Origin: Psychromonas sp. L1A2
GTDB lineage: Bacteria; Pseudomonadota; Gammaproteobacteria; Enterobacterales; Psychromonadaceae
DNA length: 64,000 nucleotides
NCBI RefSeq assembly: GCF_009828855.1
Contig: NZ_WUAG01000001.1
Location: 1,674,001 to 1,738,000 of the forward strand
Direction of reading: 5' to 3'
Of this stretch, positions 7,610 through 15,071 are shown piece after piece. The position numbers and the translations under genes are program-made. Below the pieces are notes generated by a model. That model was not told the DNA's origin. It did no database searches and was given only the letters and a program-made list of their open reading frames with translations. The number at the start of each line of letters is the position of its first letter. Within the stretch, counting starts at the first letter, position 1.

Positions 7610-7713
7610 ATTCGTTTTTTAATCTACTCTTTTTAAAATAAAGTAATAACTAGCTTCTAAACGCACCGTTCATACTCGACATCCATGTCTCGAAATGAGC
7701 TAGCAACGGCAAA

Positions 7714-7768
7714 GGGTACGCAGAGCTTAACCCGCTCATTGCACTATGCTGTCGCATAATTCGCTCCA
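7714..7768 (+). repeat. ~55-bp extragenic direct repeat, copy 2
   Basis: Begins GGGTACGCAGAGCTTAACCC and ends TTCGCTCCATG; a direct copy of 7554-7609, with 104 bp between them. Confidence 0.75.
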
Positions 7769-7809
7769 TGCCTTAAGCTTGCTGAAGTCAGTAATTGATT
7801 CAGAAAAAA

Positions 7810-7841
7810 CTCAACGGGAGAGTTGTCGCAGCCACGTTGAG
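7810..7841 (+). repeat. Small hairpin repeat, inverted copy of 14800-14830
   Basis: CTCAACG and CGTTGAG arms around a GAGAGTTGTCGCAGCC-type loop. The reverse complement of 14800-14830 has the same arms and a nearly identical loop. Confidence 0.7.
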
Positions 7842-8335: not shown

Positions 8336-8380
8336 AGGGTGGTGTGGGGGCTGGAGGTTAGATACCTCCGGCTACCCGAT
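8336..8380 (+). mobile_element. Group IIC intron 3' end fragment (domain V half + VI)
   Basis: Holds the 3' strand of domain V (GGGTGGTGTGGG) and the domain VI hairpin (CTGGAGG/CCTCCGG) ending CCCGAT. It is identical over its length to the 3' end of 12228-12662 but truncated on its left by the palindromic element. It abuts the stop codon of the LysE cassette, where the attC R'' box (GGTTAAC, minus strand) would be. Confidence 0.7.
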
Positions 8381-9018
8381 TAACCGTTTTTCATGAAAGC
8401 TAGTTTTGAACCAAAAGCAATAAAAACGACTCCTGTAATTGAGTTTAACCACACTTTAAACTTTGCTCCACTTGTAATGCCTTTAACTTTTGAAAGCATT
8501 ATAATCATCATTGAAAACCATAAAAAATTAACAATTGCATGAGTAGTAACTAGAGTATATGCACTGAGCGCTGCTTCACTTGCAGGCATAAATTGTGGAA
8601 ATGCAGCTAAATAAAACATTGATACTTTGGGGTTTAATACATTGGTTAGAAAACCTTCAAAAAAGGCTATGCGCATTGAAGTGTTTTTGCTGAAGCTTTG
8701 ATGAGTATTTTCAGTAGAGCTTTCAGTTTGCTTGAAAGCACCAATAATCGCTTTAATACCAATCCAAATTAAGTAAGCCGCACCTAACATTTTAAAGATA
8801 AAAAATGCTTGAGCAGATTGAACTAATAGCACAGAAATACCAAAAATTGATAGAGTGCCATGCACATAAAATGCTGCTACGAATCCCCATATATTAGCAA
8901 AACCTGCTTTCCTACCTGAAACAGGAACAGTTTTTGCTATAAGGAACCCGTTAGGTCCAGGTGAAACAACAAGTAATGTGGCTACTGCTATAAAAGTTAA
9001 AATATTATTTATATCCAT
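8380..9018 (-). CDS. LysE/RhtB-family amino-acid exporter (integron cassette)
   Basis: 212 residues from the ATG at 9018, chosen because AGGAG lies 6 nt before it; an ATG at 9024 has no spacing. Six-helix LysE fold: an N-terminal ILTFIAVATLLVVSPGPNGFLI with the family PGP motif, and the NPKVSMFYLAAFPQF block after the long loop. Such proteins export amino acids or their analogues. It is the last cassette: an attC R'-like GTTAG lies 40 bp upstream of the start, and an intron fragment follows the stop. The substrate is unknown. Confidence 0.85.
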   Translation of the reverse strand: MDINNILTFIAVATLLVVSPGPNGFLIAKTVPVSGRKAGFANIWGFVAAFYVHGTLSIFGISVLLVQSAQAFFIFKMLGAAYLIWIGIKAIIGAFKQTESSTENTHQSFSKNTSMRIAFFEGFLTNVLNPKVSMFYLAAFPQFMPASEAALSAYTLVTTHAIVNFLWFSMMIIMLSKVKGITSGAKFKVWLNSITGVVFIAFGSKLAFMKNG

Positions 9019-9058
9019 ATACATCTCCTATTTTAAAATGATGAACCTATAAAGACGG

Positions 9059-9472
9059 CTAACAGCTTTATTAACTCACAAAATGTCATTTTAACGGTGA
9101 AAAAACGACAAGAGTTAATGATTAAAATATTATTATTACTTTACGTTCATTTATCTATAAAACAAAGAGATATAGTTCACTTGTGAATTTCTAATCATCT
9201 AAAAACGTGGGATGTTGCAATATTTACGGTGGAAATACTGCAGGTGAGAGAGATATCACAAAAGTTTTGGACTGCCATTCATTGAAGTTAGTTCGAAAAC
9301 CAAAGGGATCAATATAGCGATCAGTAATGCGTTTTTAGCCAGACAAGGTTTGATATCATTAAAGGATTTGTGGATTAATATTCACTATTAATCATAAGAT
9401 GAACCTTCCTGTGCGGAGCCGCATGCAGGTTGGTGTGGGGGCTGGAGGTTAGATACCTCCGGCTATCCGATT
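9059..9472 (+). mobile_element. Hybrid attC / group IIC intron remnant, copy 1
   Basis: About 414 bp repeat, antisense to the cassettes. The left part begins at the attC R' box (CTAACAGC, bottom strand) with an attC-like inverted repeat (TTAACTC ... GAGTTAA) and a small hairpin with loop ACGGTGG. The right part has the tail of a reverse transcriptase frame (FLARQGLISLKDLWI, stop 9389-9391), domain V at 9401-9434 and a domain VI hairpin ending CCGAT. Domain V is altered: CCTTCC replaces CCGCCC of the canonical copy, so the catalytic CGC triad is lost and two pairs are broken. About 93-95% identical to copies at 9946 and 12228 by eye. Confidence 0.8.
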
Positions 9473-9480
9473 AGGTGAAT

Positions 9481-9939
9481 TTATACTTGTACCATATAGA
9501 AACAGTTTTCCAGTGGAATTTCTTCCGGATAATCAGCCATAAAAAAGCCAAGTTTTGTATAAGCTTGAATTGCACTTTTATTGTGCCCTAATACAAATAG
9601 TGAGCATGAATCAGTTTTTAACTCTGTTTTACCCAGAACACCCAACTTTTGTATTAAGTGGGAAGCGATACCTTGCCCGCGAAAATTAGGGTTAACAATT
9701 AATCGACCAAGATGACACTTATCAAGTCTTAGATAATATTGCCCAAATGCCAATAAATTTCCTTCAACCGAAACCAGAGAGAATGACTTTAGTGAATCAA
9801 GTTTTAAGTCACTCTTAAAAGAACTTAAATCAAATGGATATCTAAAACCAGGTCCAGACCAAATACTTAATTCTTCCTCGGTCGAAAACCAAGACATGAT
9901 TTCAATAAAATTTGCATCAGAAGGTTGATTTAAACGCAT
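9481..9939 (-). CDS. GNAT-family N-acetyltransferase (integron cassette)
   Basis: 152 residues from the ATG at 9939; a GTG two codons upstream is possible. The acetyl-CoA site is seen as LIVNPNFRGQGIASHLIQKL (motif A, RGQGIA), followed by the C-terminal ALQAYTKLGF-like block (AIQAYTKLGFF). The ribosome site AGGTG is formed by the attC R' box (GTTAGGT) itself, typical of cassettes. The 3' end runs into attC R'' (CACCTAA) interrupted by the intron remnant. The acetylated substrate is unknown. Confidence 0.85.
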   Translation of the reverse strand: MRLNQPSDANFIEIMSWFSTEEELSIWSGPGFRYPFDLSSFKSDLKLDSLKSFSLVSVEGNLLAFGQYYLRLDKCHLGRLIVNPNFRGQGIASHLIQKLGVLGKTELKTDSCSLFVLGHNKSAIQAYTKLGFFMADYPEEIPLENCFYMVQV

Positions 9940-9945
9940 ATTCAC

Positions 9946-10353
9946 CTAACAGCTTTATTAACTCACAAAATGTCATTTTAACGGTGGAAAAACGACAAGA
10001 GTTAATGATTAAAATATTATTATTACTTTACGTTGGTTTATCGATAAAACAAAGAGATATAGTTTGCTTGTGAATTTTTAATCATCTAAAAGCGTGGGAC
10101 GTTGCAATATTTACGGTGGAAATACTGCAGGTGAGAGACATATCACAAAAATTTTGGACAGCCATTCATTGAAGTTAGTTCGAAAAATAAAGGGATCAAT
10201 ATAGCGATCAGTAATGCGTTTTTAGCCAGACAAGGTTTGATGTCATTAAAGGATTTGTGGATTAATATTCACTATTCATCATAAGATTAACCACCCTGTG
10301 CGGAGCCGCATGCAGGGTGGTGGCTGGAGGTTAGATACCACCGGCTACCCGAT
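9946..10353 (+). mobile_element. Hybrid attC / group IIC intron remnant, copy 2
   Basis: Same module as 9059-9472. Domain V (10289-10322) begins AACCACCCTG, i.e. CAC in place of the CGC triad, but its stem pairs fully. The TGGGG linker between domains V and VI is missing, and domain VI has ACCACC instead of ACCTCC. The reverse transcriptase tail is still open and reads through two extra Ser codons to TAA. The left end coincides with the R' box of the GNAT cassette. Confidence 0.8.
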
Positions 10354-11258
10354 TAGAGGGCAGGAGGAAAATCTCGGATAATGGGATATGCTCTACCTAG
10401 CTTTTTAGATGAAAGTGAGCATAATTTATTGTTAGGAACACCAATACTCAGTAATTTATAATGTGTATCTGAAACACCATTATTTTCTTCTCCTCTATGG
10501 TTCCAATTCCTCCACAATGCATCTGGATATGCATTTAAAATACACTTGAAATATGGAACATCGATCTCATTAATAGAGTGACCAAGCACAATAATCTTTT
10601 TAACATCACCATATTTCTCAAGGTGTTCCCTATGCTTTTCGAGTATTTCATTAACAGGCTTATGAAATCTATCGGTTACAGATGCGAGGGTTTGATATGA
10701 CTCCTCAAACCAAGGCTGATTAGTATTTGATTCCATAGATGAGGATTTATTACCATTCCCTATACCATGTCCAAATATCACGTTAAATCTAGCTTTACCA
10801 TGAATATGCAGGACATCTTCATCTGGTACTGAATACACATCTTGAAGAGTAGATGTATAATTAAAGTTTATAAATTTAAACCCTGTAGGGAAGTCCATAA
10901 ACTTAATAGCTTGCTTTACATCTATTCCTCTAATCCAAGTTCTAAATGCACTTTGTATATCGTCTACTAACTCATCTGTTTTTTGGGATATTTCGTCATT
11001 ATAGCCGTTCACGTATTTAGATGACTCTATCATGTCATCCATGCTTGGTTCACATGCAGAACTCTCTCTGAAGTTATCCTCCTCAAATAGTCCTAAATTT
11101 TCTTCGAAATTTGACCATTCTTGATCATCAAAAAAGTCTGAAAAATGTACAAAGTAATCATCGAGTTGATCATTATATTGCTTGTGAAAATACCAATAAC
11201 TTGTAGGTAAACTGTTTTGTATATCAAATCCATTACCGACGATAACTAAAGTTGTCAA
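10353..11258 (-). CDS. AbiH-family protein (integron cassette, putative phage defence)
   Basis: 301 residues, starting with TTG at 11258 behind an AGAG ribosome site. The N-terminus TLVIVGNGFDIQNSLPTSY is the hallmark of the AbiH family (PF14253), whose founding member causes abortive infection in Lactococcus. Further family-like blocks are FINFNYTSTLQDVY, LHIHGKA, IFGHGIGN and IIVLGHSINEIDVPYF. The stop codon TAA falls inside the attC R'' box (CTCTAAC), and the intron remnant follows directly. A compact attC-like site lies before the start. The molecular activity of AbiH is not established. Confidence 0.8.
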   Translation of the reverse strand: MTTLVIVGNGFDIQNSLPTSYWYFHKQYNDQLDDYFVHFSDFFDDQEWSNFEENLGLFEEDNFRESSACEPSMDDMIESSKYVNGYNDEISQKTDELVDDIQSAFRTWIRGIDVKQAIKFMDFPTGFKFINFNYTSTLQDVYSVPDEDVLHIHGKARFNVIFGHGIGNGNKSSSMESNTNQPWFEESYQTLASVTDRFHKPVNEILEKHREHLEKYGDVKKIIVLGHSINEIDVPYFKCILNAYPDALWRNWNHRGEENNGVSDTHYKLLSIGVPNNKLCSLSSKKLGRAYPIIRDFPPAL

Positions 11259-11332
11259 TCTAAGCTCTCTATATATTAAACAAAGTAAATCAAAAAAATT
11301 TAGGTATGTGGGGAATCACTCAATATATTGCC

Positions 11333-11374
11333 CTCTAACGCTGTTTTAGTTCCGTTTTAAATGCCTTGTTAACT
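11333..11374 (-). other. Compact attC-like recombination site before the abiH cassette
   Basis: Minus strand: R''-like GTTAACAA, then GGCATTTAAAACGGAAC, then AGCGTTAGAG with an R'-like GTTAGAG. The ends are normal for attC, but the whole is about 42 bp, shorter than usual sites, so an internal deletion is likely. 11259-11332 shows nothing else. Confidence 0.5.
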
Positions 11375-11386
11375 TTACTTACAATG

Positions 11387-11467
11387 CAAAAGTGCTGGAT
11401 ACCCATCTATTTTTAATCCTAAGGCTTTGATTTTGTTGCGATGAACTATTGGATGTCCAATACTTTT
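11387..11467 (-). repeat. Imperfect palindromic element, copy 2 (inverted)
   Basis: Ends AAGTGCTGGATACCCAT and ATTGGATGTCCAATACTT are imperfect inverted repeats (about 12 of 17 pairs). The interior matches the reverse complement of 8251-8325. As at 8251, it lies directly left of a truncated intron end. Confidence 0.7.
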
Positions 11468-11472
11468 CTACA

Positions 11473-11493
11473 AGATACCTCCGGCTCCCGATT
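11473..11493 (+). mobile_element. Group IIC intron 3' end fragment (domain VI tail only)
   Basis: Only GATACCTCCGGCTCCCGATT remains, the 3' strand of domain VI with one base missing. It abuts the attC R'' (GCATAAC, minus strand) downstream of the DUF4145 cassette gene. Confidence 0.6.
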
Positions 11494-11520
11494 ATGCAGC
11501 AACAACTCGGTATATTAAAA

Positions 11521-12210
11521 TTAAACACCTGCGATATGTGATTCAAGATCTTTAATATTGGTAGGTAATTCATAAATATATTCGAAAAGGTATTCCAATA
11601 GATCTATCATGGCTTTTGCTACTTCTTCATTTGGCTCTTTACTCTCATCAAAATGTGCACCTAAATTTCCACCTTTTCTGATAAGGTGTGCCAAATTGTT
11701 TAGGGGCTCGACCCAATCTACAGAGCCTTTAGCGGCTTCAATTGCACTTGCTAAATTCTTTTTTCGTTCGCCTTCAGGAAGTAAATAATAAAATATCCCC
11801 TCTAGTGTTCTCCTACAGCCTACGGCTGTAGCTATATAGTTTTTTGAATTATAGGAAACTAGTGAAGACTCATATGCAATTTGTAATTGCTCAGGAATAT
11901 ATTTTGTATAGTCTTTTTTTGCACGTATTGAGCTCATTTCTGGGTACATATAAAGGTTATCTAAATCTGTAACCTCATCGGCTTTTGATTTAGGCCCCAT
12001 ACAGTAAAAATTTGCATCATGGTCACAAGAAGGACAAGGCGAAGAAAAATTGAAAGCCTTACGAAATTGCATGTCATTAACAGGGTTTTCCAATTTAAAA
12101 ATTACTTGTTCTGAGCATTCAGGACAATGTGTTTTGATTGAAAACGGCAAATAATATTGATTTCCATACCAATGCCACCTTTTAACTGAGCTTAATGATA
12201 ATTTTTGCAC
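11521..12210 (-). CDS. Zinc-ribbon DUF4145-domain protein (integron cassette)
   Basis: 229 residues from the GTG at 12210, preceded by AGGA at 6 nt; the open frame further upstream runs into the intron/attC repeat and is not used. The N-terminus has two CxxC pairs (Cys29/32 and Cys59/62), likely a zinc ribbon. The C-terminal half has the DUF4145 signature: ATAVGCRRTLEGIFYYLL, then HLIRKGGNLGAH. DUF4145 occurs alone or fused to restriction and defence proteins, but its function is unknown. The cassette stop is followed by an R'' remnant and an intron end fragment. Confidence 0.7.
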   Translation of the reverse strand: MQKLSLSSVKRWHWYGNQYYLPFSIKTHCPECSEQVIFKLENPVNDMQFRKAFNFSSPCPSCDHDANFYCMGPKSKADEVTDLDNLYMYPEMSSIRAKKDYTKYIPEQLQIAYESSLVSYNSKNYIATAVGCRRTLEGIFYYLLPEGERKKNLASAIEAAKGSVDWVEPLNNLAHLIRKGGNLGAHFDESKEPNEEVAKAMIDLLEYLFEYIYELPTNIKDLESHIAGV

Positions 12211-12227
12211 GATAGTTCCTTTGATGC

Positions 12228-12662
12228 ATAACAGCTTTATTAACTCACAAAATGTCATTTTAACGTTGAAAAAGCGACAAGAGTTAATGATTAAAAATAT
12301 TATTATTACTTTACGTTGATTCATCTATAAAACAAAGAGATATAGTTCACTTGTGAATTTCTAATCATCTAAAAGCGTGGGACGTTGCAATATTTACGGT
12401 GGAAACACTGCAGATGAGAGACATATCCTGCAGGTGATAGGCATATCACAAAAGCTTTGGACAGACATTCATTGAAGTTAGTTCGAAAAATAAAGGGATC
12501 AATATAGCGATCAGTAATGCATTTTTAGCCAGACAAGGTTTGATATCATTAAAGGATTTGTGGATTCATATTTACTACTCATCATAAGATGAACCGCCCT
12601 GTGCGGAGCCGCATGCAGGGTGGTGTGGGGGCTGGAGGTTAGATACCTCCGGCTACCCGATT
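12228..12662 (+). mobile_element. Hybrid attC / group IIC intron remnant, copy 3 (best preserved)
   Basis: Same module as 9059 and 9946 with a short internal duplication near 12410-12450 (CTGCAG.TGA.AG.CATATC repeated). Domain V (12591-12624) is canonical for group IIC: AACCGCC with the CGC triad, a GGAGCC tip and a GGGTGGT return strand with a G-U pair. The domain VI hairpin CTGGAGG/CCTCCGG ends CCCGAT. The reverse transcriptase tail (AFLARQGLISLKDLWI) is open to TAA. The left boundary is the R' box ATAACAGC of the DUF4145 cassette. Confidence 0.85.
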
Positions 12663-12665
12663 ATA

Positions 12666-13088
12666 TCAGACCGTTACGGCAGGCGATTTTGCTAGAAAAT
12701 CATCAAACTCTTTCTCAAATTCACTTTGTAATGACTTAAAGCCAAAAGCAAAATTACCATTTTTTTTCAAAAAGTCTGAAAACCATTTTTGCTTAGTTTT
12801 TGATAACACGATTGGAGGGTTAAACACTTTAATAGATCCTTCCTCACCAAACATTTCTAGGTGTTTATCAGAAACATCAACGTCAGCAACTTCGAAAGTA
12901 TATGCGATATAGTAATCGCTTGAATTTGGATCGGTACGGTGAATTAACCAGACTCTTCCACCATTTTCCCAAGCATCAACTACGATTGACTCTTTCATGC
13001 TATTAAGCTTCGTAAATACATATGGCTGAGGATTAGAAAGTGGGTTTCCCTCTTCCCAACTTTTATGGTACTGAATAAAGTGTTTCAT
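12666..13088 (-). CDS. Unknown protein (integron cassette)
   Basis: 140 residues with an AGGA ribosome site before ATG. It is soluble and acidic, with no recognised domain. Strands alternate with polar turns (ESIVVDAWENGGRVWLIH, YYIAYTFEVADVDV), and a helical C-terminal tail is rich in Phe and Lys (LQSEFEKEFDDFLAK). It lies between a full attC (13105-13206) and the intron remnant at 12228-12662. Function cannot be assigned. Confidence 0.7.
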   Translation of the reverse strand: MKHFIQYHKSWEEGNPLSNPQPYVFTKLNSMKESIVVDAWENGGRVWLIHRTDPNSSDYYIAYTFEVADVDVSDKHLEMFGEEGSIKVFNPPIVLSKTKQKWFSDFLKKNGNFAFGFKSLQSEFEKEFDDFLAKSPAVTV

Positions 13089-13104
13089 GAATTTCCTATT
13101 TTGA

Positions 13105-13206
13105 TATAACGCTTTGCTAAGCGCGCAAAAAATTGTTGGCTAAAATTAGCGAGGAACGAGCAAAAAGCCAACTGTTTTTTGTCCGTTTAAGCAACTTGTT
13201 AGATGC
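13105..13206 (-). other. Complete attC recombination site
   Basis: Read on the minus strand: R'' ATCTAACAA, L'' GTTGCTTAAACGG, an internal stem (GTTGGCT ... AGCCAAC with flanking A/T runs), L' GCGCGCTTAGCAAAGC and R' GTTATAT. The outer arms TAACAAGTTGCTTAAACG and TAACGCTTTGCTAAGCG pair as in Vibrio/Shewanella-type attC sites. The stop codon of the upstream cassette lies in R''. This is the only intact, intron-free attC in the island. Confidence 0.85.
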
Positions 13207-14572
13207 CATGAGGCGACAAACCTGTCAGCACCGTATATGCAGTGCATGCTCTATCAAATAAGTCATCATATGTTAAAAATTCATCGATAGTATACTGTTG
13301 AATTATCATCTCTTTATACCGATTAATATCTGCGACATTATTGAAACTGGATTGAGTCGAACGACTCATGATCAGACTTGTTTGGCACTTAGTATGTATA
13401 CCGGGGTAGCGTGTTTTTATTTGATTATAATGTTCTCTAATATAATGAACCCACTCAGCTGTTTGAAAAGCAGCTTGACCAACTTCTGCTCTAGGCTGTC
13501 CTTGTTTTGTCGCTACCTTTTTAGAAGCTCTTTCTAATTCAACTAATTTATAAGATTGGTCTGCATATATAACAATAAAGTCAGGTTCTACATAAGTTTT
13601 TCCGATTGGTGATAACTCATCTGCGGGGTAATGTAACTGTGGTTTACTTTCACAACTGCCATACACATCTAAAAGAATCGGATGCTTTTCAATTAACTTA
13701 TGGAATACATCTTCAGTTTCATGAGATTGAAATAATAATACATTTTTAAAGTCGTCAATCGCTTGTTTTAATTTCCCCAAACGATTTGTATAGTTTTCTA
13801 CCCATTGGTTTGTTGCCCCCATACTTATTGAGCCACCTTTATCACCATCGGGGTTAGATAGAGTCTTAGCGAAATCACGCCTTAAGTCATTTTTTACGCG
13901 TAAATTTATTATTCTTTTGTCCCAAGCTTCAAAGGATGACTGACCATAAATCTCGATATAATTGAAAAAACATCGATTGTTTAAATCTGCAGGAAAGAAA
14001 CCCATTTTTTCAATTATGTAAGGCTCGCCAAAGGCAGTCGTTGTATCAGGTAAATGTGGATCTAAAACGATACCATACGCACCAAAAGTCATATGACAGA
14101 TAAGGTTTTTTAAATTTGTTTTTACTTGTTTTAAGTGTAAAGAAACATTTAAATCATCGTTTACTGCAGTTTTTTGATAAGAAACATTTTTAATTTTACC
14201 TTTCCAAACTGAAGAAGGTATATGTTCTTTGGGTACAATTCTGTATATACCAATAGGTTTTCCTGTCAAACCATTATCGTCGATAAACTTTGTAACTTCC
14301 TTTGGCGTTTTTGTGGGTTCCAGATCAACTTTAAAAGCTGGTCCACCTGCAATATACCATTGATGTTCAGGCTCATTCGCAACCTCATTAATCACAACAC
14401 CATCTTCTGCAAGGATCACTTCAAATGCTTCTGAATTCAAAAATGGGGAAATTGAATGCCTGGGATAACCAGCGCCTTTAGGAGGTAAAGAAGTGAAATT
14501 ATCGTATGTTTCTCTATATTTTGAAATATACTCGAAAATAAAATCCCGGAGTTTATCGATTTCAATGCTCAT
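13199..14572 (-). CDS. Shedu-like (DUF4263) PD-(D/E)XK-type protein (integron cassette, putative defence)
   Basis: 457 residues. The C-terminal third resembles the Shedu/DUF4263 nuclease domain: HKLIEKHPILLDVYG, then EPDFIVIY (Glu329, Asp331), then YKLVELERAS (Glu345, Glu347) and AEVGQAAFQTAEWVHYI (Gln366). The usual ExK is ExE here, with Lys351/352 nearby. The N-terminal 280 residues are unlike known nucleases and may sense the trigger. The start follows attC R' (GTTAGATGCC); the TAA stop lies in the next attC R''. The family assignment rests on pattern only. Confidence 0.6.
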   Translation of the reverse strand: MSIEIDKLRDFIFEYISKYRETYDNFTSLPPKGAGYPRHSISPFLNSEAFEVILAEDGVVINEVANEPEHQWYIAGGPAFKVDLEPTKTPKEVTKFIDDNGLTGKPIGIYRIVPKEHIPSSVWKGKIKNVSYQKTAVNDDLNVSLHLKQVKTNLKNLICHMTFGAYGIVLDPHLPDTTTAFGEPYIIEKMGFFPADLNNRCFFNYIEIYGQSSFEAWDKRIINLRVKNDLRRDFAKTLSNPDGDKGGSISMGATNQWVENYTNRLGKLKQAIDDFKNVLLFQSHETEDVFHKLIEKHPILLDVYGSCESKPQLHYPADELSPIGKTYVEPDFIVIYADQSYKLVELERASKKVATKQGQPRAEVGQAAFQTAEWVHYIREHYNQIKTRYPGIHTKCQTSLIMSRSTQSSFNNVADINRYKEMIIQQYTIDEFLTYDDLFDRACTAYTVLTGLSPHGI

Positions 14573-14585
14573 AACTTCCCTTTGG

Positions 14586-14642
14586 CATCTAACAGTGTAA
14601 CTAAGCCGAATTATTCCGTATTTACGGTGGAAATACGGAATA
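14586..14642 (-). other. attC R' end and adjoining hairpin, right edge of the cassette cluster
   Basis: Minus strand CTGTTAGAT (R', GTTRRRY) lies 8 bp before the Shedu-like gene start region. It is preceded by a perfect 12-bp hairpin, TATTCCGTATTT / AAATACGGAATA, with loop ACGGTGG (14612-14642, plus strand). The same loop and inner stem occur in all three hybrid intron/attC modules. No integrase gene or further cassette lies beyond it. Confidence 0.55.
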
Positions 14643-14741
14643 GTTTAATTTGATAAATTAGAGGTTACTTTAGTGCAATAAAACATTAAATCAATAATTT
14701 AAATAAAAACATAAAACCTTTCTCATGTGGAAAGGCGGAAA

Positions 14742-14772
14742 AATTCTGTATTTACCGCAGAAACACGGAATT
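14742..14772 (+). repeat. Second AATTC-type hairpin related to 14612-14642
   Basis: Arms AATTCTGTATTT and AAACACGGAATT around loop ACCGCAG; 10 of 12 Watson-Crick pairs with two G-T. The same family as the hairpin 130 bp to the left. Confidence 0.55.
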
Positions 14773-14799: not shown

Positions 14800-14830
14800 C
14801 TCAACGCGGCTATAACTCTCCACCGTTGAG
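14800..14830 (-). repeat. Small hairpin repeat, inverted copy of 7810-7841
   Basis: CTCAACG/CGTTGAG arms; the reverse complement nearly matches 7810-7841. Confidence 0.7.
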
Positions 14831-14845
14831 CTTTCCCAAGCAATG

Positions 14846-14937
14846 AATACCTTTCTGCAACAGCAAACAGGACGTTTGCTGTAAGTTCATCCGGCACAGG
14901 GAAGTGCCGTATGAACTGGTGCGTTAAGAAAGGTATT
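14846..14937. repeat. Three-way-junction palindromic element
   Basis: Outer stem AATACCTTTCT (14846-14856) with AGAAAGGTATT (14927-14937) encloses two hairpins: CAGCAAAC/GTTTGCTG (14861-14881) and AGTTCAT-CCGGCAC / GTGCCG-TATGAACT (14884-14917). Noncoding; the structure is visible directly and resembles REP-type extragenic elements. Confidence 0.75.
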
Positions 14938-14964
14938 TATTGATTGGATTAGAAAGCGATTCGG

Positions 14965-15071
14965 TGTCAGTTTCTTTGCCTACTTTCTTTTCTGATAAAA
15001 GAAAGTAGAGTCGCCGACAGGGCGAAAATACTGCAATTAATAATCTAAATGCCACAACGAGCGAAGACGAG
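14965..15071 (-). repeat. Extragenic repeat, inverted copy of 7446-7549
   Basis: Contains the hairpin CTTTCTTTT ... AAAAGAAAG and the block GTCGCCGACAGGGCGAAAAT. See 7446-7549 for the match. Confidence 0.75.

Follow-up and report, generated by a model that had tools for sequence, protein, structure and literature searches.

What stands between the gene cassettes of an integron where their attC sites would be expected? The question is raised by a cassette array in the chromosome of Psychromonas sp. L1A2 (label G000; 4.34 Mb in two contigs), within a stretch of 64 000 nucleotides (contig NZ_WUAG01000001.1, positions 1,674,001 to 1,738,000) that we call the window. The array, on the minus strand, begins with an attI-like site (14593-14771) and ends at 8336; at three junctions its cassettes, a to f counted from that site, are separated by a module of ~410 bp. 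We consider it probable that the module consists of the fossil tail of a group IIC-attC intron and a complete copy of attI, standing together where the attC of a cassette is expected.

Two halves of one module

The three ~410 bp repeats between cassettes, noticed in a preliminary description made from the sequence, are real and lie in a Psychromonas chromosome; copies 2 and 3 are 94% and 90% identical to copy 1 (E 9e-181 and 4e-171). They have two blocks in common, A (~184 bp; 9059-9242, 9946-10129 and 12229-12412) and B (178-183 bp; 9289-9471, 10176-10353 and 12479-12661), with a linker of 46-66 bp in between. When one module was used with its flanks as a query against the L1A2 genome, 16 places matched, including the query itself; beyond whole modules, the matches were to A only or to B only. 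The repeat, therefore, is made of two separable pieces.

At the A end the motif TAAC begins at 9060, 9947 and 12229, the C that precedes it at 9059 and 9946 being shared by chance. By profile and alignment the attI-like A copies are placed on the minus strand at 9060-9242, with the crossover point G|TT at the left end, at 9947-10129 and at 12229-12412; they read towards cassettes f, e and c, respectively. The linkers, delimited by alignment, occupy 9243-9288 (~14 bp of attI flank and a short dispersed repeat), 10130-10175 and 12413-12478 (with a 20-bp insertion repeating its neighbour). The B copies are on the plus strand, antisense to the cassettes; copy 1 is the 3′ end of a 5′-truncated group II intron of the IIC-attC type in the R″ box of cassette e, and copies 2 and 3 are intron tails in R″ of cassettes d and b.

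We saw the two proposed boundaries, the G|TT crossover and the intron 3′ end in R″, conserved in all eight full-length modules, three in the window and five from two other species. On the intron side the module terminates with CCGAT followed by T, matching TTGT/T, the insertion junction stated for group IIC-attC introns in PMC7923331. The antisense tail in R″ with this junction was likewise found in 3/3 window modules and in 5/5 of the others. Two shorter relatives (L017:14748-15084 and L087:6430-6788) keep both ends; what they lack is internal, namely 27 bp at the junction as well as a portion of A.

Block B corresponds to the final 183 bp of a group II intron, i.e. the C-terminal end of the reverse transcriptase (RT) frame with probable domains V and VI, and it starts directly behind the R″ box of the cassette. 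The Rfam group II model, run at E up to 1, reported one of the three copies (12592-12661; 47.6 bits, cut-off 40), with the assignment of the other two resting on alignment. From insertion site, orientation and junction we infer that the intron belonged to class IIC. A model of group IIC-attC introns is reportedly due to Leon and Roy (2009). The intron 5′ half is absent in every module copy, as had been noticed, so that a complete ribozyme with its RT frame is lacking; the module is not a working intron, and the intron itself no longer moves. A full-length parent was not found in the L1A2 genome, where a profile search gave no RVT_1 match and TIGR04416 matched only a remnant of 41 positions. 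In another species a related intron was seen on two contigs, with domains I-IV and the RT on one (L101) and the 3′ end on the other (L085). We had considered A as the missing 5′ half and rejected this, since A occurs alone at several loci and the 5′ half in L101 reads differently. Across the genus, many cassettes bear intron tails of varied length at R″.

The other half had been described as a part of attC, which was not borne out. A profile was built from seven A copies of the L1A2 genome (three in modules, four solo), with no intI locus among them, and was run against 21 fetched loci of the 31 intI matches in the genus, some of them near contig ends. It matched 10 of the 21, always just upstream of intI and in correct orientation; nearly the whole profile was covered in eight loci and a part of it in two (L072 and L073). 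Both the core G|TT and the direct repeats of an attI are present in A: a 22-base repeat (17/22 identical) recurs at a distance of 132 in A and of 130 in the attI beside the interrupted intI of the same genome. The imperfect palindrome of an attC (R″-L″-L′-R′) is not formed; taken single-stranded, the 122 bases of A on the core side folded no better than shuffled sequences (z 0.42), whereas two ordinary attC sites taken as controls folded better (z -2.80 and -4.25). The whole of module 2 gave z -1.83 with its ends unpaired. Attribution to attC is thus ruled out by attI homology and folding together, and by homology A is a copy of attI. No module copy has an intI match over the cut-off beside it.

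Solo attI sites and the origin of the junction

Where did this attI come from? In the fetched stretches of the L1A2 genome an A profile matched seven sites outside modules, five of which had been among its training sequences; only one of the seven adjoins an intI over the cut-off, and that intI is interrupted. Among the sites compared, A comes closest to a solo attI without intI that adjoins ssb on the other contig; the two differ at 9 of 184 positions. Five other attI sites showed 37-88 differences of 184-185, with two sites (L072 and L025) placed only roughly relative to A. The module flank resembles the ssb site as well: similarity to that site begins 14 bp upstream of A.

Of 24 Psychromonas genomes, five have the ssb attI (L017, L087, L089, L090 and L091), with the flank split in genome SP041; at E up to 1e-60 no intI was matched at any of the five sites. 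In every one of the ten pairwise comparisons among the five species, ssb flank and attI align up to the core with 86-94% identity. Nine solo sites, from the ssb locus and two others, were compared over the 300 bases beyond the core, and none of their 36 pairs showed similarity at E up to 1e-5. The two other sites (L021/L094 and L023/L095), known from two species each, follow the same pattern of conserved flank and attI, unrelated sequence beyond the core and no intI. Solo attI sites with different cassettes thus exist at conserved places. At L018 an apparent intI start is retained, as judged by eye, so some of the solo sites are probably decayed integrons.

One could speculate further about a scattered integron, in which one or two integrases would serve several solo attI sites in trans and attI-bearing cassettes would seed new entry sites at whatever place they reach. 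The shared flank and attI, the unrelated sequence behind and the lack of intI at the ssb site in five species speak for it; we hold this reading to be rather doubtful.

The history of the module may be read from the junction between intron tail and linker. The short dispersed repeat in the linker occurs in four modules and, with 2-3 mismatches, at four further places in the L1A2 genome. The junction itself was found in three of the 24 genomes of the genus, in 3, 1 and 5 copies, one of the five copies having no A behind it (G009:C28, L087:5906). A scan of GTDB r220, which possibly excludes the L1A2 genome, returned three stretches, all from SP041 or P. arctica DSM 14288. In the full-length modules the same tail/linker junction is followed by the same attI. 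Given this distribution, the junction was most likely formed once and then spread with cassettes, while the intron did not move. The earlier supposition that the copies, having a common internal junction, spread as one unit rather than by independent insertions is thereby supported.

Cassette exchange and competing explanations

Over 23 intervals from attI to the first B, the start of the cassette agreed with its own R″ at 128 of 184 positions; shuffled pairs agreed at 79.5 on average, and none of 10 000 shuffles reached 128. The intervals came from 30 profile hits, of which two ending before profile position 150 were skipped, four were dropped (one with no clear core, three with no downstream B) and one duplicate was removed; related copies and poorly matching intervals with several cassettes were all kept. 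We conclude that these are genuine integron cassettes with the intron in their R″.

The corresponding locus of SP041 was compared for signs of their movement. The chromosome is 94.4% and 94.9% identical on the two sides of the array, and the flank of attI0 has 36 differences in 709 positions. Against this background cassette e has 0/474 differences, the module behind it 1/413 and cassette f 5/678, i.e. 6/1565 for the three together; the module that flanks cassette e on its opposite side has 17/411. Apart from modules, the remaining cassettes of the two arrays have no mutual similarity. Near-identity of the e-module-f segment within flanks diverged by ~5% therefore indicates exchange after the lineages split, and recently. 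In SP041 two tandem copies of one cassette gene differ at 2/454 positions and the modules behind them at 15/408 (p 0.0008, with an end artefact as one of the 15), which suggests exchange between modules.

We propose the following course of events. A group IIC intron would first have inserted into R″ of a cassette that belonged to an array at the ssb attI, and its 5′ part would have been lost. Then, a single time and in an ancestor of the three Psychromonas, some rearrangement, for example a tandem duplication, would have placed a copy of the ssb attI behind the tail. The resulting unit, gene-R″-intron tail-attI, would have spread with exchange of genes, for the most part through homologous recombination of one 410 bp direct repeat with another, a process that can delete, duplicate or replace the intervening gene; IntI acting at the attI core G|TT perhaps assisted. 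The sequence is compatible with either route, homologous recombination from module to module or action of the integrase at the attI core.

Several observations weigh against this course. The duplication at the ssb locus is a step that we infer and do not see. At 11 of the 21 intI loci the A profile had no match at E up to 1. The contrast of 2/454 with 15/408 may partly stem from constraint on the gene. Two pairs were scanned for a breakpoint inside the module: one, picked among 28, yielded p 0.0065, a weak result once corrected, and the other p 0.79. Finally, the first cassette of SP041 directly abuts attI0 and ends in a module, just as insertion by IntI would give.

The last point belongs to the rival that survives best: the units of gene, intron tail and attI would be functional cassettes, excised and inserted by IntI via the attI core, with the module replacing attC. 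One edge lies at G|TT in 8/8 full-length modules, cassette starts match their own R″, and at solo attI sites similarity between species ends at the core with new sequence behind. According to PMC12901181, IntI1 of class 1 integrons excises attI1-aadB-attI1 units at >97%, and the L1A2 genome does have an intact IntI frame (G000:C2:112967). However, the attI beside that frame, placed roughly, is much less like A, while the intI whose attI is nearest to A (G000:C1:1098510) is interrupted, the same interruption being read in SP041. From the same source it follows that an active matching IntI should quickly lose two-attI units, yet several persist next to each other; their persistence fits the loss of the nearest integrase. 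We regard such cassettes as possible, and tentatively so.

The fossil-tail-and-attI reading also has to be set against two explanations in which the intron did the moving. Under the first, the whole module from TAAC to CCGAT would be a short intron derivative that entered each attC in trans. Both module ends are indeed precise, and the 3′ junction is that of group IIC-attC introns; but such insertion predicts an attC remainder between A and the next cassette, and none is present. Moreover, A is an attI found without B at several loci, and the L1A2 genome has no RVT_1 match and only the TIGR04416 remnant, although a source elsewhere is possible. We judge this very improbable. Separate full-length insertions into each attC with separate decay, for which the tails of differing length at R″ in other cassettes of the genus give some room (separate insertions may well occur), are hardly credible for full-length modules with one tail-linker junction and the same attI behind. 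Full-length introns at the same sites in relatives had been named as what would favour such decay; as far as this check was run, the same locus in two relatives (L086 and L088) held modules of the same kind and no full-length introns.

As a separate observation on recombinases, a multi-copy gene pair (L027:1444-3377 and more places) encodes a tyrosine recombinase of 295 aa, similar to integron integrases and below the intI cut-off, together with an IS91-family transposase.

Known relatives of the module and the genes of the array

A parallel exists at the opposite end of attC. In P. arctica a complete insertion sequence (IS) of the IS1182 family (L092:2773-4619; transposase of 534 aa, 270.8 bits against a cut-off of 270) sits at the core of an attC as GTT[IS]GTT. 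At L070, L073, L076 and L080 the left end of the IS follows the GTT of an attC or attI-like core; the combination of GTT and IS left end was counted 33 times, in 14 of the 24 genomes, and the left end itself has 98 matches in either orientation. In the literature found there was no report of IS1182-family elements targeting integron cores. A second hybrid spacer between cassettes joins the same intron tail to an IS1182-family right end (L096:6147-12853 in SP041; L018:6892-10547 in the L1A2 genome). We first took its part behind the tail, X, for another attI and dropped this, as X aligns at 72.5% to the end of the IS1182-family transposase and the right end in L092. With an intron in R″ and an IS at the R′ core, parasites thus occupy both ends of attC, and loss of the interior leaves precise edges like those noticed in the preliminary description. 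Such site-specific parasites can erase attC and leave portable repeats, through which homologous recombination could shuffle cassettes with no integrase.

The module resembles two known kinds of element. According to PMC7923331, group IIC-attC introns such as UHB.F1 are likewise antisense, in R″ and with the TTGT/T junction, and a 5′-truncated copy in a cassette array has been reported there; unlike them, the module has one truncated tail with one junction behind several unrelated cassettes, fused to attI and not to attC. In delta-attI-type cassettes, too, attI sequence replaces attC downstream of the open reading frame (ORF), as it does in the module-bearing cassettes. In PMC12901181 the attI1 or attI2 sequence of such cassettes, from class 1 and 2 integrons, mostly measures 14-18 nt, one type having 244 nt and one case a complete attI1; here we have ~184 bp of attI plus an intron tail, in chromosomal arrays. 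These cassettes weaken the earlier opinion that no composite site of this kind had been described. No title or abstract in the literature found mentions an intron tail with attI, a weak negative given that subscription literature was little covered.

Clusters of cassettes with no neighbouring integrase, CALIN in the terms of PMC7923331, resemble the window array, which has cassettes and attC and no intI match within; unlike CALIN, the array is headed by an attI-like site and contains additional attI copies. The module is, most likely, portable sequence homology ending in an attI core, and attI, normally one fixed site beside intI, is here multiplied inside arrays and carried along with cassettes. 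It offers a natural case of several adjacent attI-bounded cassettes, an arrangement said to be rare, since IntI takes it out at once (PMC12901181).

In order from the attI-like site, the array encodes on the minus strand a Shedu-like protein of the SduA_C family (cassette a, 13199-14572), a protein with no Pfam family at E 0.01 (b, 12666-13088), DUF4145 (c, 11521-12216), an AbiH family protein (d, 10353-11258), a GNAT acetyltransferase (e, 9481-9945) and a LysE translocator (f, 8380-9024), all from ORF and Pfam evidence. The start of the cassette c gene is our choice, its longest ORF extending to 12324, within A. Two genes of this set, AbiH (10353-11258) and Shedu-like (13199-14572), are defence genes residing in integron cassettes.

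Besides the modules, the array retains one ordinary attC between cassettes a and b (13103-13214, minus strand, by eye; its bottom strand folds, z -2.80) and one collapsed attC between c and d (11322-11372, minus strand, by eye). Two short intron tails on the plus strand lie at cassette 3′ ends: one of 45 bp with no A behind it, found by alignment, at that of f, the last cassette (8336-8380), and one of ~20 bp, seen by eye, at that of c (11473-11492). The first attI-like site (14593-14771, minus strand) is of a type differing from A; an A profile matched it at 14615-14768 with 43.9 bits, its core was located by eye, and the search for intI gave no match beside it. We make no claim of a promoter or terminator role for the module (8 promoter-like sites against 6.6 expected; 0 terminator-like against 1.2).

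The array's first attI is closely preceded, at window positions 14813-14974, by an Rfam TwoAYGGAY match (57.3 bits, cut-off 43); a second, weaker match, below the cut-off, lies on the minus strand at 7621-7816.

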